A DNA stretch of 64,000 nt from Salicibibacter cibi (lineage in GTDB: Bacteria > Bacillota > Bacilli > Bacillales > Marinococcaceae): positions 1,612,001 to 1,676,000 of the forward strand of contig NZ_CP054706.1 in the NCBI RefSeq assembly GCF_016495865.1, in the 5' to 3' direction. Numbering within the stretch: the first letter of the stretch is position 1; every line of letters starts with the position of its first letter. This document shows positions 35,803 to 43,072 of this stretch, piece after piece. The notes beneath the pieces were generated by a model, which was not told the origin of the DNA, did no database searches, and saw only the letters and a list, made by a program, of their open reading frames with translations. A program made the translations under genes and the position numbers.

Positions 35803-36740
35803 CTGCTAAACTAAAGTAGACAGTTTCCGCTAAATAAAAATGAACACTTTCTGGCAGGGGGTAGCAGCGAATGGAGGGCTGCCCCGAGGGGCAGCCCTCC
35901 ATTCGCTTTCGAAAATTTTTCTCCCCTGATCTTGAAATTTTTGCTTCACCATTCCTGTATAATGCTTAGATGTTGAACATTTCTACTACATACAGCAATG
36001 GGGGAGACGGAAAGGTGGAAAAGTGGCACGTGTACATGGATATTTATCAATTAAAACAGCAAGGGTTCAAGATTCGAGGAATTGCCAGAAAGCTAGGCAT
36101 CTCAAGGACGACGGTCTACAAGTATCTCGAAAAATCTCCGGAAGAAATGAGTGAATGGATGGCCTCAACTCAAACCAGAAAGAAAAAGTTAGATCCGTAT
36201 GAAATGCTCATCCAAACATGGCTCAGTGAACATCCGGATCTATCCGCATCACAAATTCATGATTGGTTATTTGAAAGACATTCGAATCTCAAGGTTGGCG
36301 AAAGCACCGTGCGTCTGTATGTCAATGAGCTTCGTGAAACATACAACATTCCTAAAACGGCGGAGGCGCGCGACTTTCAAAGCCTTCCAGATCCACCGAT
36401 GGGCGAACAGGCTCAAGTAGACTTTGGTCACACCGTCCAAAAAACAGCTGACGGCAAGGAGATGAAGCTCACGTTCATTACATTCGTTCTTTCGCACTCG
36501 CGCTATAAATTTGTCGAGTGGCTGGACAGGCCTTTTACAACAAAAGATGTGATTAACTGCCACGAGAAGGCCTTTCATGCTTTTGGAGGCATGCCTTATG
36601 AAATCGTTTATGACCAAGATGCCTTGCTTGTCGTGAGCGAAAATGCTGGGGATTTGATCTTGACGGAGGCATTTCAGGCGTATCGCGAGGAGAGGAAATT
36701 AACCATGTACATCTGTCGCAAAGCAGACCCTCAGAGCAAG
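35801..36740 (+). mobile_element. Left part of an IS21-family element
   Basis: Starts TGTGACTGCTAAACTAAAG with repeated sub-terminal motifs (AAAGTAGACAGTTT, AAAATGAACACTTT), followed by istA. The element ends at the RIT inverted repeat; istB and the right end are absent. Confidence 0.75.
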
Positions 36741-36752
36741 GGTTATGTATAG
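36015..36752 (+). pseudogene. istA: IS21-family transposase IstA, cut before catalytic Glu
   Basis: GTG start with GGGGGAGACGG upstream. The N-terminal HTH (GFKIRGIARKLGISRTTVYK) is followed by the integrase core: first Asp in EQAQVDFGH, second in EIVYDQDALLVV. The frame ends ...DPQSKGYV then TAG, the stop being supplied by the RIT inverted repeat. In IS21 transposases the sequence is SKG-x-VE, so the next codon would have been the catalytic Glu. Not functional. Confidence 0.85.
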
Positions 36753-36774
36753 TAAATGATAATGTAAAGTAAAC
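36741..36774. repeat. RIT left terminal inverted repeat
   Basis: 34 bases, exact reverse complement of 40151-40184. Contains GATAATGTAAAGTAAA, repeated inverted at 36809-36828. Confidence 0.9.
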
Positions 36775-36830
36775 CTTTTCTTGTGGTCATATTAATTAAT
36801 TTATGCGAGATTTACTTTACATTACCACTA

Positions 36831-37850
36831 TCAATTATTGAAACTTTGCAGCCAAGTCAATAGATTTTCATTTTCTTGCCACTCCGGTGCCTCAGAAGGT
36901 GCTACATCAGTGTATGCTTTCTCTATCGCCTCTCTTTTTTGTTTTGAATCTGTTTTGGCATAGATTTCTGTCACTTGTACAGAACTGTGACCAAGAATAT
37001 CTCTTATATATACAAGATTTACACCGGCTTGAAGCAAGTGCATTGCCTTTGAGTGTCTGAGACAATGGCAGGTAAACACTTCTGGAATCAATGTTTTGTT
37101 TTCTTCACGTGCTAAATTTTTGTATTTGGTTAATACATAGTTTACCCCGGCTCTTGTCAGTTTCTCCTTCCTCTTGTTGAAAAACAGAGGATATAAATTC
37201 GAAGAATTCCTCAAAAGACTTTGTTCTTCCATATATCGCCTTAGTATCTGTACAGTAGGATCCATTAAAGGTACAATCCTGGCTTTGTTTCCTTTACCGA
37301 TCAATTTTATTGTATAGGGTTTATCAAACCTAACCATTGATGGCGTTAAATCTATTATTTCCTGTACCCTGGCACCCGTTTCATACATTAGTGTTAATAA
37401 AGCTAAATCTCGACGTCCGGCTATTGTTTCTAAATTTGGCATTTTTAGAAGTAGCTTTATTCCATCAAGGGTTAGATAGTTTATGGCTTTCTTGTTTGTC
37501 TTTTTGACTGGAACAGAAAGGATCTTCTGCCATTCCAATAGATGATCTGGATTCTCGTATTGAAGATACTTAAAAAAGGAGTGGATAGCTGCCAGTCGCA
37601 CATTCCTTGTTGATGTGCTGCATCTACGTACGTCTTCCATCCAATCCAGATATTCCACTACGATATGTTTGGTTACCATATTCAAGGTCAAACTATCCGC
37701 GGGAATTTCCTTTTCATCGTTTAAGAAGCGAAGAAAAAGAATAAACGAGTCCCTGTAGGAGGCTATGGTGTTTGTGCTTGCGCCGGCTTCGCCTGGAAGG
37801 TATTTAGTCAGAAACCTCGTTAGATAATAGGAAAAATCAGTGGGCTTCAT
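36831..37850 (-). CDS. RIT tyrosine recombinase C
   Basis: 339 residues. Catalytic residues: Arg in YETGARVQEIIDLT, Lys in LIGKGNKARIVPL, HxxR in CHCLRHSKAMHLL, His in DILGHSSVQ and Tyr in VTEIYAKTD. An N-terminal SAM-like core-binding domain precedes. Third gene of the trio; its start overlaps the previous gene by 14 bp, so the three are translationally coupled. RIT recombinases are thought to act together (family knowledge). Confidence 0.9.
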   Translation of the reverse strand: MKPTDFSYYLTRFLTKYLPGEAGASTNTIASYRDSFILFLRFLNDEKEIPADSLTLNMVTKHIVVEYLDWMEDVRRCSTSTRNVRLAAIHSFFKYLQYENPDHLLEWQKILSVPVKKTNKKAINYLTLDGIKLLLKMPNLETIAGRRDLALLTLMYETGARVQEIIDLTPSMVRFDKPYTIKLIGKGNKARIVPLMDPTVQILRRYMEEQSLLRNSSNLYPLFFNKRKEKLTRAGVNYVLTKYKNLAREENKTLIPEVFTCHCLRHSKAMHLLQAGVNLVYIRDILGHSSVQVTEIYAKTDSKQKREAIEKAYTDVAPSEAPEWQENENLLTWLQSFNN

Positions 37851-38796
37851 TTGGCTTCACCTCCGGAAACAAGTATGAACACAGCTTGTTTACATCTTGA
37901 ATTAATTCCGGATACATATCCGAGGTTAATCTGACATACTTGTCGGTAGCTTCCAATGAATTGTGACCCAAGTATTTGGAAAGAATCGGGAGAGAATAGT
38001 ATAAATCCATTCCTTTACGGGACATTTCTGCCAATGAATGCACACTGAATGAATGTCTAAGATCATGTACCCTTGGCCCCAAACCCTTCCCACCATGGGA
38101 AATCCCAGCTTCCCAGAGAATTTTACGAAACCACTTATATACTGTGTCCGAAGCGTACCGGCTACCATTCCACTGTATAAAAAAGTAATCCTCGGAGCCG
38201 TTTGACGATAAATGAAGATTGTATTGTTTACAAATAGTTATTAAAGAATCGGAAAGGGGGAGTATTCGATCACTTCCATTTTTCGTTTCCCGAACCATAA
38301 TATAACCTTCGTCAAGGTTCACATCTTTATTTTTAAGGGACAATGCTTCATTTATCCTTAACCCGCAGCCGTAAATTACACGGAAAACGACAGGAAGAAT
38401 ATACTTCATATTAGAATTACGATGAACCCTTATCGTATCACATGCAGTAAAGAAAGATTTTAGCTCCTCTTTTGAAAAAATATATGGTGTGAAAGTTGAT
38501 TGATACTTTTTAGGCGTTCTCGGAATGCAAGACTGATATCCCAGCTGATTCAGGTATATACAGAAGTTGGCTATATCATTAATTCGTTTATACCTGGTGA
38601 CATCAGATTCATTCGGGCGTTTTTCTATCCATTTGTCTGCCAATTCCTTTGTCAAGCCGACTGAAGTTGATTCATTTTTGATTGTAAAATCGTCAAACAT
38701 TTTGAAAGTATAAGTATCACTTAAGGCATAGCCCATATTTCTTTTAAATGCTATATATTGCTCTATCAAATACGTATTAACCCCTGATAATTTCAT
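37837..38796 (-). CDS. RIT tyrosine recombinase B
   Basis: 319 residues. Arg in YGCGLRINEALSL, Lys in ETKNGSDRILPL, HxxR in RVHDLRHSFSVHSL, His in KYLGHNSLEAT, Tyr in DKYVRLTSD. Middle gene, overlapping the first by 4 bp (ATGA type) and the third by 14 bp. All catalytic positions appear present. Confidence 0.9.
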   Translation of the reverse strand: MKLSGVNTYLIEQYIAFKRNMGYALSDTYTFKMFDDFTIKNESTSVGLTKELADKWIEKRPNESDVTRYKRINDIANFCIYLNQLGYQSCIPRTPKKYQSTFTPYIFSKEELKSFFTACDTIRVHRNSNMKYILPVVFRVIYGCGLRINEALSLKNKDVNLDEGYIMVRETKNGSDRILPLSDSLITICKQYNLHLSSNGSEDYFFIQWNGSRYASDTVYKWFRKILWEAGISHGGKGLGPRVHDLRHSFSVHSLAEMSRKGMDLYYSLPILSKYLGHNSLEATDKYVRLTSDMYPELIQDVNKLCSYLFPEVKPNEAH

Positions 38797-40046
38797 TTCA
38801 GTTCACCCCCCTGGTAATGGGGTGATTGAATTTTTGGTACATCCAGCGCACATTCACGAAGGGATTCCAAATCAATCCGAAGGTAAGTTTTTGTGCTTTC
38901 CGTATTGGTGTGTCCTAAAACCTCTGAAATAACTGGAAGGGGTGTCTTCTGTTCCAGAAGAATTCCCGCAAGACTGTGCCGCAATGCATGGGGACCATGT
39001 TTTTTATGATCAATATTACTGATGTTTGCGTGTTTTAGATAAAAGGAAACGATACTATGAAGCGTAGGCTCTTCAAGTTTGTCATATGGTTGCCCAGCTC
39101 GTAAAAATATATATGGAAGATCTGATTCAGGCCTTCCGTATTTAAGGTAATCGATAATAGCGTTTCCAAGCTCAACTAAAAGTGGGAGCTCTAATTTTTC
39201 TTTGGTTTTCTTTTGAATTAGATGTATAGTGTTGGTTTCCCAAAGTATATTTTCAAATTTTAAGCCACAGATGTCCGAGGCTCTCAATCCGAGTCTGGCT
39301 GCCAATAGTATCATAGCTTTATCTCTTTTACCTTTAGGGCTGGCTGTATCTACAGTGGCCAATACCCGTTCTACTTCATCTTTTGTATAGGTTGTAGGGA
39401 GACGTGCTTCTTTTTTATAGCTACTTTTAGGTACAAGATACGTTAAATCATAATCTAAATATTGATTATCAAATAAGTATCTTAGAAAACCACGTATGGA
39501 ACTAAGCGTACAGTGTATTGTCGACTTAGAAGAAAAGCCAAGTACATTAATAAATCCCAGAATGTGTTGTTTGTCAAGACCAGAAAGAGACAATATTTTG
39601 TTCGAATTAAGATAGCTTAAGAATCTATGGAGATACAATTTGTTGCTAGCTATAGTGTCTTTCGACATCCCTTGTGCCTTTCTATAGGACAGAAAATTTT
39701 GCATAAGGTTTCCTATTTCACCTTCAAAATTATAGTCCTTTCGAACAGACCGGAATTTTATCATCCCGGTGGTTTGATACTCAATAAGCACATTGGTACT
39801 CCGTATTAAGTCCTTTTCTTTCCTGCTAAGTTCCGTATAAGATCTTTTATTTAATATGTTTGTTATGAATGCATCGCCCACCTTCGCATCAAAGATTTCC
39901 GTTCGCTGCTCTTCCATAAATTGCTTCAGACGTTTCCAACCATTTTGGTAAACCCTGATTCGCACTTTGTGATATGAAAGTTCGTTAAAATAAGCCTCCA
40001 CCTCCGATGTAATTTCACAAAGTGTCTGTTTCTTTTCACCCGTCAT
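38793..40046 (-). CDS. RIT tyrosine recombinase A
   Basis: 417 residues, the longest of the trio and first transcribed. Arg in AARLGLRASDICGL, Lys in IQKKTKEKLELPL, HxxR in GPHALRHSLAGILL, His in EVLGHTNTEST, Tyr in KTYLRIDLESL. The N-terminal half is a larger core-binding region. The ATG lies about 50 bases inside the inner right repeat, so recombinase binding at the end could also control transcription (inference). Confidence 0.9.
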   Translation of the reverse strand: MTGEKKQTLCEITSEVEAYFNELSYHKVRIRVYQNGWKRLKQFMEEQRTEIFDAKVGDAFITNILNKRSYTELSRKEKDLIRSTNVLIEYQTTGMIKFRSVRKDYNFEGEIGNLMQNFLSYRKAQGMSKDTIASNKLYLHRFLSYLNSNKILSLSGLDKQHILGFINVLGFSSKSTIHCTLSSIRGFLRYLFDNQYLDYDLTYLVPKSSYKKEARLPTTYTKDEVERVLATVDTASPKGKRDKAMILLAARLGLRASDICGLKFENILWETNTIHLIQKKTKEKLELPLLVELGNAIIDYLKYGRPESDLPYIFLRAGQPYDKLEEPTLHSIVSFYLKHANISNIDHKKHGPHALRHSLAGILLEQKTPLPVISEVLGHTNTESTKTYLRIDLESLRECALDVPKIQSPHYQGGELK

Positions 40047-40150
40047 TAAATTCCTCCCTATATTTTTTATTAGGCATCTGCCTATTTAAAATATAGGGTG
40101 ATAATGTAAAGTAAATCAATAAAAAGTTTTGAAAAATAGGAGATTTATTA

Positions 40151-40184
40151 GTTTACTTTACATTATCATTTACTATACATAACC
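40151..40184. repeat. RIT right terminal inverted repeat
   Basis: Exact inverse of 36741-36774. The companion inner site is at 40098-40117. Confidence 0.9.
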
Positions 40185-40937
40185 TTTTGCAGGGGCATCA
40201 TAAGGTTGCGTATGTGATAAGGTAATTCCCAACTGCGCACAAGCGAATTGCAATGTTTCCGACCGATAGATTTTACCATTGTCCGCATATAGGACTTTTG
40301 GAACCCCTCGGCGAAGCAATGCTTCTTTGGTAATCTCACGAAGGCCGTCAAATTTCTCGTTATCGAAAAACTGTGCGTATGGGACGAGGCGCGAACAATC
40401 ATCGATGTACGCATATAGATACGTTTGTTTCTTCCTGATAAATGGCCCATGGGAGACATCGCCTTGCCAAAGCACATTCACTTTGCCGTGGGCGAAACGT
40501 TTTCGGCGCGCATCTTTGGTCTCTTTGTCTGTGAGGCCCTGTTGTTTCAATAACCGGTTCACCGTGGCGTAGGACACTTCCCCGGCGTTGATGTCACCTT
40601 TTTGGATCAGCTGTTGATAAAAGACGGTCACCGGCATATCCGGCACCTCTTCACGACAAGCGAGAATATGATCCTGTTGGTCGGGCGACAACCGTCGGGC
40701 ATTCCCTTTGTCCCCGCGATGTCTTGGCTTTAAGCCATCAAACCCCTCTCGCCGATACGCCGACAACCATTCCAGGATGGTCTTTGCGGCAATCTGCTTT
40801 TCACCGTAATACGGCATGTCATGCGTCTTCTGCGCTTGCTGATCCAAGTAGTCTTTGCGCTCCACCAAGTCATTGAGTAATGGCGTGATCAGCCCGTAGC
40901 GAAATAGAGCCACGTTTTCTTTCGTTTGTTCATCCAT
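40173..40937 (-). pseudogene. DDE (rve-type) transposase, cut before catalytic Glu
   Basis: Starts at ATG 40937 (MDEQTKENVALFRYG) with GAAGGGGG upstream. An N-terminal HTH pair is followed by the integrase core: first Asp in LWQGDVSHGP, second in LYADNGKIYRS. The frame ends PYDAPAKGYV then a stop supplied by the RIT terminal repeat; the Glu of KGxVE and the C-terminus are missing. It belongs with the DUF6431-like gene at 41094-43362 as one IS. Confidence 0.82.
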
Positions 40938-41336
40938 GGATTCGGATTCCCCCTTCAAAAATGTTGAAGGATGGCCGGCCATCCGTTATCTATGATTCTA
41001 TCTTTTTCCTCTTGGCACGTATACGCAAACGTTATGTGGGATGGCCAAAACAACGAATGAGCGGTGCCCTGATGCCGAAATAATTTGATTATGTTATACT
41101 GGTCGTGCCATAAAATAGCTTGATAAATGACCCTTTGACCTTTTTAGGAAGGTGGATTCTCCAAAATCTCGGATCATTGTCAGGTATTTTGTGGCATTTT
41201 CTTTTTTACACCGGACGTTCAGGGCAACCCTCTGATCCATGAAGAAGCTGTGCAACCAAGTAAGGAAATAAAGAAACCGCCGCAGGTAAAAAGCGACAAG
41301 CTGGCGAAGGATCTGTCCTTTTTTCTTTTTCAACAC

Positions 41337-43072
41337 GAGCTAATTGCGCTGTTTCAAAACCGTTGCCGCACAAGGGGTGCGAGTGACGTAAAAAAATATT
41401 TTCTCCCAAAATCAAACGGAATTAAAGGCTTGGCGAAGGTCAAAAGCACGGATCCTGATACATCGACCCCAAATCATAAAAAAACAGGTGAAACCGCTCC
41501 ACTAGTGGGTTAGAATAGTTATAGACAAAAAACCAACTATTACCCTGGAGGGTCACCTGTTATGGCTATTATACCACAAATGAGCTTGTTTTCATGGGAA
41601 GATCTTGCGGATCTTGGAGATTTGGAACGCTTACGTTTGGTGCTCGATTATTTACCGGATGAAGCGTTGATGCGAACGTTGGAGAAAAAACGATATAAAG
41701 GGCGAAATGAATACCCTGTTCGCGCGATGTGGAATACGATGCTTGCAGGGGTTGTCTTTGAGCACACATCGATTGAATCATTGCGTCGGGAATTGAGCCG
41801 CAATGGACAGCTACGCGAATTGTGTGGCCTCACCGTGATCGTGCCCCCTGCTTATGTATATACGCGCTTTTTAAAAAAGCTGCGGGCGCACGAATCAAAG
41901 GTTGAAGCGATTTTTGAAACGATGGTGGAACAATTGAGCGAGCTCCTCCCTGATTTCGGGAAGGCCCTTGCGATCGATGGTAAGGCAGTAGACTCTTTTG
42001 CGAAGGGAAAACATAAGGATGAGGATCCTGACGGACGCCGTGATACCGATGCCGATTATGGGAAGAAAGAATATAAGGGGAAACACAAAGACGGGACGAT
42101 CTGGAACAAAGTGATCAAATGGTTCGGCTATAAAATCCACCTGATCGTCGACGCGGCCTATGAATTGCCTGTGGCTTATTCAGTTACGAAAGCATCGGTG
42201 CCCGATATTAACGCCGGTCATGATATGATCAATGAGCTTGAAAAAGAACGCCCTTGGCTTTTGGGACAAGCAGAAACACTCGCCGGTGATCGCGGTTACG
42301 ATGACACCAAAATGCTTGAGCGGCTGTGGGATGACCATCAAACCAAGCCTGTCATTGATATCCGGGACATGTGGAAAGATGGCGAGGACACGCGCCAACT
42401 GATGGACATTGAAAATGTCACGCATGACTATAAAGGCACCGTGTACTGTCACTGCCCGCTGACCGGGAAAGAGCGCGAAATGGCGAATGGGGGCTTTGAG
42501 AAAGATCGAGCCACCCTCAAAAAGCGTTGTCCGGCCAAACAATATGGCATCACCTGTGAAGGACAAGCGGAGTGTCCGATTGCCCAAGGAATTCGGATTC
42601 CGCTCAAGGAGGACCGCCGGATCTTCACGCCGATCGATCGAGCCAGTTACACATGGGCGAAGGCATACGCGAAACGAACGGCCGTGGAACGTGTGAACAG
42701 CCGGCTTGACGTCTCCTTTGGCTTCGAACAGCATACCACACGCGGGCAAAAGAAGATGAAAATGAAAACTGGGTTGGCTCTGTGCACGATGTTGGCGATG
42801 GCTTTAGGCCATATCCAAGAAGGCCGCCCGGAAAAAATGCGAAGCTTGGTTTCCTGAAAGCATCCACATGTGGGAAACCGAATTTTAAAACAGTTTTTGT
42901 GGATAACAGGGTACGTGTGTCTTTTTTGAGGTATAAAAACGAATGATATTCGAATAGTAGCGATTTTGGTTCGTGGAAGGAAATTTTAAGGCGTTTTCAA
43001 CAAAAAACCAGGAGTGAACCTGGTCCCGTTTTTACGCCTAAAGCGCAAAAATCGTTACAACGCAAAAAGCTC
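41337..43072 (+). mobile_element. IS element (1736 bp), copy 2
   Basis: Ends GAGCTAATTGCG and CGCAAAAAGCTC as in copy 1 (25531-27265). AACAC is duplicated at 41332-41336 and 43073-43077. Confidence 0.92.
41562..42857 (+). CDS. DDE transposase of IS copy 2
   Basis: 431 residues, nearly identical to the copy 1 protein (start MAIIPQMSLFSWEDL, Asp in ALAIDGKAVDSF, LAGDRGYDDTKMLERL, Glu in RTAVERVNSRLDVSFGFE). GGAGGGTCACC precedes the ATG. Small differences, such as ERPWLLGQAE versus ERPWILEQAE, show the copies are not from a very recent single event. Intact. Confidence 0.92.
   Translation: MAIIPQMSLFSWEDLADLGDLERLRLVLDYLPDEALMRTLEKKRYKGRNEYPVRAMWNTMLAGVVFEHTSIESLRRELSRNGQLRELCGLTVIVPPAYVYTRFLKKLRAHESKVEAIFETMVEQLSELLPDFGKALAIDGKAVDSFAKGKHKDEDPDGRRDTDADYGKKEYKGKHKDGTIWNKVIKWFGYKIHLIVDAAYELPVAYSVTKASVPDINAGHDMINELEKERPWLLGQAETLAGDRGYDDTKMLERLWDDHQTKPVIDIRDMWKDGEDTRQLMDIENVTHDYKGTVYCHCPLTGKEREMANGGFEKDRATLKKRCPAKQYGITCEGQAECPIAQGIRIPLKEDRRIFTPIDRASYTWAKAYAKRTAVERVNSRLDVSFGFEQHTTRGQKKMKMKTGLALCTMLAMALGHIQEGRPEKMRSLVS

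Follow-up and report, generated by a model that had tools for sequence, protein, structure and literature searches.

How does a single mobile element come to lie between the front halves of two different transposase genes, both broken at the same pair of codons? The question is raised by a 64,000-nucleotide stretch of Salicibibacter cibi DNA (contig NZ_CP054706.1; hereafter the window), in which a RIT element, carrying a trio of overlapping tyrosine recombinase genes, separates two 5′ halves, that of an IS21 istA gene and that of an IS481-type transposase gene. A first-pass annotation, made from the window sequence alone, attributed this arrangement to a target preference for DNA encoding a conserved catalytic motif, combined with recombination between two RIT copies. 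Our analysis leads to a related account that we regard as quite probable, namely core-specific integration into Lys-Gly codons followed by an exchange of ends between two RIT copies.

Results

Both flanking genes are broken at Lys-Gly codons

The element and its two joints are laid out as follows.

36743-40182, minus strand: RIT element proper, 3440 nt measured between the outer ends of its arms
35970-36752, plus strand: IS21 istA 5′ half, native through 36742, then Tyr-Val-stop from the RIT arm; ends DPQSKGYV-stop
40173-40982, minus strand: IS481-type transposase 5′ half, native from 40183 on, with Tyr-Val-stop from the RIT arm; ends YDAPAKGYV-stop
36737-36742, plus strand: left core CAAGGG, Lys-Gly codons of istA
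40183-40188, minus strand: right core AAAAGG, Lys-Gly codons of the IS481-type gene

The left half matches the IS21 profile NF033546 over positions 2-230 of 294 with 152 bits, below the cut-off of 160, as half a gene would be, and the right half matches the IS481 profile NF033577 over positions 23-231 of 284 with 152.7 bits (cut-off 224). In the two halves the rve domain (PF00665) ends at profile positions 102 and 101 of 102. These profiles and the joints themselves confirm the earlier claim that the RIT separates two different transposase genes, each cut ahead of its catalytic glutamate.

Homologues locate the junction to the codon. Among the best 120 of 298 istA homologues, 82 continue through KG(K/R/M)(I/V)E; the other 38 comprise 6 that end in KGYV (the S. 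cibi half included), 4 that end in KGYVKxxxM, 1 that ends in SKG and 27 that are otherwise shortened. Among the best 120 of 854 IS481-type homologues, 109 continue KGK(I/V)E and 11, again including the S. cibi half, all end in KGYV. The KGYVKxxxM endings agree with the ends of another RIT lineage (loci L100-L103), and truncated homologues bearing RIT ends number 21, the two of the window included. Since native sequence runs through KG to K, R or M, then I or V, then E, the RIT joins after the Lys-Gly codons. As read from these alignments, the tyrosine, valine and stop codon are supplied by the RIT end, and the catalytic glutamate, third residue after the glycine, is lost from both genes. Both host frames terminate at stops inside the RIT arm, just as the first-pass annotation had proposed. 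Its suggested KGYVE string was correct in placing the cut before the glutamate but lay two residues off, the YV belonging to the RIT; intact homologues rule out KGYVE as the native motif. One istA homologue (P0002, from Lentibacillus kapialis), 88% identical to the window half, stops exactly at SKG without YV, perhaps at a contig end or at another element.

Cores and spacer of a standard insertion

Elsewhere, a standard RIT copy reads half-gene, 6-nt core, element, reverse-complemented core, 20-bp palindromic spacer, core and other half-gene, the spacer being equivalent to two arms back to back. Of 68 loci, 46 have a spacer, defined as at least 8 of 10 palindromic pairs followed by 6 nt and then an arm, and 44 of these have it on a single side; 855 control stretches from the same loci contain none. 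The spacer occurs on both sides at L087 and at L073, where the second hit is probably due to chance.

Genome G129 carries four RIT copies in one type of istA, two in each orientation. The spacer always lies on the side of the 3′ half, and its asymmetric base reverses together with the element. A flip of the RIT alone is ruled out as the origin of the two orientations, the spacer base being reversed too. The two orientations and the reversed base would fit a circle that carries two inverted cores and can use either one; a circular form with two usable cores is likewise what we infer from the inverted cores and spacer of the standard copy. The core letters themselves move between positions: the left (attL), outer and inner cores are TCCACC, GCCGCC and ACCCCC at L081, and GCCGCC, ACCCCC and TCCACC at L082, and CAAGGG and TAAAGG are exchanged in the same manner between L101 and L102 (automatic core reading was wrong for L039, L102 and L111, and L102 was re-read). 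Because cores shuffle in this way, the inner core looks like a memory of an earlier target.

Targets across Bacillota and plasmids

A RitC search of 398 Bacillota genomes gave 43 matches in 30 genomes. Forty regions were fetched, and with the window 41 matches were read and 38 assigned; left out of the 43 were L107, L108 and L110 (contig ends), G581:C75, and G424:C1:840389, which lies inside L094. In 34 of the 38 assigned matches the RIT lies in a transposase, IstB, group II intron reverse transcriptase (RT) or recombinase gene. The classes are distributed as follows.

KGx(I/V)E of rve-type transposases, cut after KG: 14 of 38
IstB Walker A: 7 of 38
IstB Walker B: 3 of 38
Group II intron RT (PQGG): 4 of 38
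IS66: 3 of 38
Tyrosine recombinase: 2 of 38
IS4-type DDE transposase: 1 of 38
Amidoligase: 2 of 38
Phage portal: 1 of 38
L091, flanked by ArdA and by a serine-recombinase zinc ribbon: 1 of 38

The Lys-Gly (KG) label was given by motif or 3′ half, with no Pfam hit, at L073, L076, L078 and L105, and with only helix-turn-helix or weak Pfam hits at L074, L075, L103, L104 and L024. Most of the 34 lie at a fixed motif, and break positions recur within three classes: Pfam column 104 of 238 in 7 of 7 IstB Walker A cases, column 160-161 in all eight IstB Walker B 5′ halves scanned (counting those of plasmids and L028), and column 122 of 205 in 6 of 6 RVT_1 cases (plasmids included).

Three cases merit separate description. 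In G498, L085 and L086 occupy two different amidoligase genes cut at the same point, between SCG and IH(V/I)H, with Amidoligase_2 broken at column 113 in 4 of 4 halves. At L095 (G566, contig 92) fragments of a second RitA and RitB adjoin the RIT, whose target appears to have been the HDLRH codons in the ritB of another RIT; the short halves give no Pfam hit, and the label comes from HDLRH by eye. At L091 (G415, contig 5) an ArdA-type gene on one side faces part of a serine-recombinase zinc ribbon on the other, with unmatched cores, perhaps another swapped copy.

Target class, as assigned from these joints, tracks the recombinase tree. On a RitC tree of 45 rows (one row for some multi-copy genomes; L078, L109 and others, with no full RitC or RitB match, omitted), the target labels require 14 changes against a shuffled mean of 28.9, with 0 of 200 shuffles as low; the KG label alone requires 3 against 12.1 (0 of 500), near-copies favoring such clustering and long branches leaving some placements uncertain. 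The window belongs to a clade of nine rows, every one labelled KG, with SH-aLRT support of 96, in which the KG label of one member, L007, derives from its ends (core) alone. L007, a 3472-nt contig of Terrihalobacillus insolitus consisting of the RIT alone, is the closest relative found (RitC 87%); both of its ends read GTCAAAAGG ahead of the arm, and because its coverage is 127-fold it probably represents several collapsed copies.

The uniform clade and the motif in intact homologues thus support the preference for conserved-motif DNA that the first-pass annotation had suggested. Neither of the two outcomes it had named as telling against this preference occurred: related RITs did not turn out to insert in random sequences, and intact homologues do carry KGx(I/V)E. 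In one respect its account is too narrow, for other RIT lineages use other motifs and some enter non-transposase genes (ArdC, amidoligase, lysozyme, Sno, phage portal).

Plasmid RITs were read in two sets, which bear on plasmids and not on chromosomes outside Bacillota. The first 12, picked by score and diversity, lie in IstB at Walker B (4), group II RT (2), a tyrosine recombinase at the Tyr region (2; L033 by Pfam, and L032, which has no RitA match, by eye), an ArdC-type metallopeptidase at HExxH (1), Sno (1) and lysozyme (1), with L034 in no class. Ten more were taken from a spread listing after the target rule had been formed, and 8 joints were readable, L121 and L122 not being among them: the first Asp motif of IstA (AQVDFG) in 1, IS66 in 2, tyrosine recombinases on both sides in 1, and ArdC in 4, of which three are at HExxH and L114 is further on. 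In this second set the description "gene carried by mobile DNA" is true in 8 of 8 cases and "transposase or recombinase" in 4 of 8. At L122, on a Dinoroseobacter shibae plasmid, the RIT adjoins a gene with a TOTE-type primase domain and a helicase, beside a strawberry notch gene.

Mismatched flanks and reciprocal products

The window copy departs from the standard arrangement: a 5′ half stands on each side, the two cores differ, and the spacer is absent from both ends. A search of the S. cibi genome for the missing halves, as the first-pass annotation had advised, found neither 3′ half; at E 1e-8 only the 5′ halves of istA and the IS481-type gene match. In the same genome no spacer occurs within two mismatches, and the single three-mismatch hit equals the control.

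The form with two 5′ halves recurs at L040 (two different istB genes, at Walker B), L092 (IstB halves identical across the 154 nt available on one side), L106 (two IS66 halves) and L117 (two tyrosine recombinases cut at HVIRH). The converse, a RIT between two 3′ halves and accompanied by two spacers, is seen at L087 and, by eye, at L120. On contig C1 of G732, a genome of two contigs, L106 and L087 lie ~30 kb apart, and their RITs are 99.96% and 99.78% identical over 2575 and 906 nt. Judged by their structure, L106 and L087 are the pair of products that an exchange between two RIT copies should yield. Loci L096 and L097, which share 6371 identical nt and diverge at the core, are by the same reading another trace of exchange, in a genome 85% complete and 7% contaminated. 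L037 has one istB 5′ half, no spacer, and no gene assigned to its other side.

Because G732 retains both reciprocal products, the flank mismatch in the window is best read as the outcome of exchange between two RIT copies, one product of which would have been lost. The recombination envisaged in the first-pass annotation accordingly finds support in the two 5′ halves, the absent spacer and the G732 pair. The reciprocal product is gone from the S. cibi genome; the event would therefore have deleted DNA, or the composite arrived ready-made.

Genes and ends of the window element

The remaining features of the element are listed below.

38793-40046, minus strand: ritA, 417 aa, tyrosine recombinase with HALRH and GH..Y motifs
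37837-38796, minus strand: ritB, 319 aa, tyrosine recombinase, 4-nt overlap with ritA
36831-37850, minus strand: ritC, 339 aa, tyrosine recombinase, 14-nt overlap with ritB
36738-36774, plus strand: left inverted repeat, 37 nt, 97% complementary to the right arm, containing most of the core
40151-40187, minus strand: right inverted repeat, 37 nt, pairing with the left arm
36743-36752, plus strand: arm repeat TTATGTATAG, left end
36760-36769, plus strand, and 36815-36824, minus strand: further left arms
40173-40182, minus strand: arm repeat TTATGTATAG, right end
40156-40165, minus strand, and 40102-40111, plus strand: further right arms

At each end a 10-nt arm, T(T/A)ATGnnnAG, is present three times. 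Phage_integrase (PF00589) is present in RitA, RitB and RitC, as are, by pattern, the catalytic Arg, HxLRH and Tyr motifs. Gene order matches that of the pHG1 trio of Cupriavidus necator H16, with identities of 31% (RitA), 34% (RitB) and 44% (RitC), and the length of 3440 nt and 37-nt arms agree with the ~3.5 kb and terminal inverted repeats of ~28-34 bp of RITs. Between the repeats there is no other open reading frame (ORF) of at least 80 aa, except one inside the rit genes, antisense to them or out of frame with them. The segment 36743-40182 has the RIT-defining features tested except the terminal palindrome, which the form with two 5′ halves would lack; none stands beside either end, and PMC3414803, in its accessible text, mentions a palindrome but does not require it.

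A DNA search of the S. cibi genome (3.81 Mb, one contig) found no second RIT copy, and one scan of IMG/VR viral contigs found no RitA relatives. Multi-copy relatives in G129, G641 and G732 suggest that RITs are mobile. Just upstream of istA, a 42-nt stretch (35866-35907) with a 95% match to its own other strand forms a strong hairpin, perhaps a terminator or part of an IS21 end. An ORF at 41562-42857 (431 aa), which by eye resembles another DDE transposase, adjoins the IS481-type half, and the region seems rich in insertion sequences.

Discussion

A proposed route and its alternatives

The joints, the motif position, the spacer rule, the two orientations with reversed spacer, the core shuffling and the reciprocal pair elsewhere can be read in the sequences; the circle, the chemistry and the order of events are what we infer from them. 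Briefly, the window lineage would integrate by site-specific recombination at a 6-nt core, xAARGG, which would correspond to the Lys-Gly codons ahead of the catalytic Glu in rve-type (DDE) transposases. The RIT would leave as a circle whose joint consists of reverse-complemented core, 20-bp palindromic spacer and core, and either inverted core of that circle could pair with a target core. The product would be 5′ half, core, RIT, reverse-complemented core, spacer, core and 3′ half. Its RIT could point either way, and its inner core would retain the letters of an earlier target. A copy in istA and another in an IS481-type gene might then swap ends, either through homologous recombination within the RIT or through their own cores. 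The window would hold the product with two 5′ halves and no spacer, and the reciprocal product, with two 3′ halves and two spacers, would have been lost.

Could a single RIT have produced the same structure? After insertion into the IS481-type gene, its inner inverted core might have recombined with an empty istA core elsewhere, bridging two targets and likewise yielding two 5′ halves without a spacer. Both cores of the putative circle seem usable, and L096 and L097 diverge exactly at the core, as such a bridge would allow. We nevertheless consider it improbable: L087, the G732 partner, holds a RIT with two spacers, which needs two copies, and L120 is alike. The bridge also predicts a reciprocal joint of 3′ half, spacer and 3′ half without a RIT, and none was seen in the search for one, which covered the S. 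cibi genome only. An assembly artefact, in which the 3.4-kb repeat joined two unrelated contigs, is very unlikely. A repeat of this length can cause such joins, and L007 is a bare RIT contig of that kind, but the S. cibi genome is one contig with one RIT and no stray 3′ halves, the form with two 5′ halves recurs in L040, L092, L106 and L117, and the reciprocal partner of L106 lies on the same contig.

It is hardly credible that the RIT inserts anywhere, or at a short run such as AAAGG, with the shared KG a coincidence. In favor of such insertion, the core spans no more than 6 nt and is not constant in its letters even in a single lineage (CAAGGG, AAAAGG, GAAGGG, TAAAGG). Against this stand the fixed break columns in IstB and RVT_1, the 21 truncated homologues with RIT ends, and the 34 of 38 RITs in transposition, recombination or RT genes; at an assumed 20% of DNA in such genes, the probability of at least 34 of 38 is 5e-20, a figure that treats as independent rows that are not. 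No relatives within the window clade lie in unrelated sequences. Random insertion as such is ruled out by the fixed columns together with the truncated homologues in the database.

Integration at Lys-Gly codons followed by end exchange nonetheless has several observations against it. The S. cibi genome contains neither the reciprocal product nor a second RIT, the exchange being read from other genomes, and no circle was seen in the sequences examined. The spacer rule fails at 22 of 68 loci, which include copies with two 5′ halves, loci read at one end only, weaker spacers recognized by eye (L039, L041, L077, L089, L120) and some without explanation. Inner and outer cores differ at L098, and L091 has different genes on its two sides with unmatched cores. 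IS66 is broken less uniformly than the other classes, by different lineages at differing columns (157 in three matched halves of G732, 153 in L111, 137 in L119), and some RITs lie in amidoligase, phage portal, Sno, lysozyme and ArdC genes. Several KG labels rest on the motif without a Pfam transposase hit, and rows that share a genome are not independent, the 38 collapsing to 30 when each genome and class is counted once.

RITs as possible invaders of other mobile elements

The window RIT and its relatives in conserved motifs suggest a way of life that depends on invading other mobile elements. On balance we lean toward a general reading of RITs as hyperparasites of mobile DNA, in which each recombinase lineage would home to the codons of one catalytic or nucleotide-binding motif: the DDE Glu or Asp, IstB Walker A or B, RT PQGG, HxLRH (including that of a RIT's own RitB) or ArdC HExxH. 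A circle with two inverted 6-nt cores would allow entry either way, loss of the active site would cripple the host element, and bridging two targets would delete or invert the DNA between them. In nature RITs may thus hold IS21, IS481, IS66 and group II introns in check, and they may give rise to deletions and inversions. The motif rule predicts the landing site of each lineage, the circle joint and the hybrid joints left by two copies. It makes RIT target choice, empty site and movement directly testable; all three are listed as not tested in Table 1 of PMC10214605 (2023), a paper that, like the others cited here, is represented by its accessible portions.

Relation to known systems

RITs, first described in 2009 as cited in PMC10214605, are presented in PMC3414803, PMC2864759 and PMC8138268 (Cupriavidus and others) as ritA, ritB and ritC in ~3.5 kb with terminal inverted repeats, and the window element is alike in its overlapping tyrosine recombinase trio, size and terminal inverted repeats. 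Both PMC3414803 and PMC2864759 describe individual RITs that lie in transposase genes (Tn6049-like, IS66) and in radC, and PMC3414803 also gives a terminal palindrome, unexplained, and no proof of mobility. The accessible text of these three papers contains no motif rule, core or double-core joint, or account of mismatched flanks. No statement of a RIT target motif was found in the literature searched, subscription papers, including Ricker 2013 and Van Houdt 2009, lying mostly outside it; the priority of the rule, judged without those two, can be judged only in part. The "RITs" of PMC12306157 are Rho-independent terminators and not these elements.

Three other systems invite comparison. The strand-biased circularizing integrative elements (SEs; PMC10214605) resemble RITs in their tyrosine recombinases, inverted end motifs and target preference, and their 6-bp core, kept as footprint and fingerprint, is comparable to the RIT inner core. 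In contrast to RITs, SEs carry four genes (intA, tfp, intB, srap), and their circle joint holds a single 6-bp spacer where that of the RIT would hold two inverted cores around a 20-bp palindrome. GInts (PMC5385486) share three tyrosine-recombinase-type genes with RITs, and their circular form was shown by PCR; unlike RITs, they require a fourth essential gene, ginD, and often sit at the start or end of ssb, where they are said to spare target function. The Tn554 family (PMC10214605) has multiple tyrosine recombinases, a 6-bp footprint and a target preference in common with RITs, but consists of tnpA, tnpB and TnpC, the last not a tyrosine recombinase. None of the partner genes of these systems (Tfp and Srap, GinD, TnpC) lies between the window repeats among ORFs of at least 80 aa.

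Inteins and homing introns also exploit the codons of conserved active sites, a target they meet again in host after host. They move by endonuclease and repair, and they splice out and keep the host gene working. In the window only recombinase domains were found, and the host frames stop in the RIT arm. RITs, which disrupt the gene and use tyrosine recombinases, resemble inteins and homing introns in site choice only. They would represent a class of transposons that, like inteins, uses protein conservation as an address, here within other mobile elements, but destroys the host gene on arrival.

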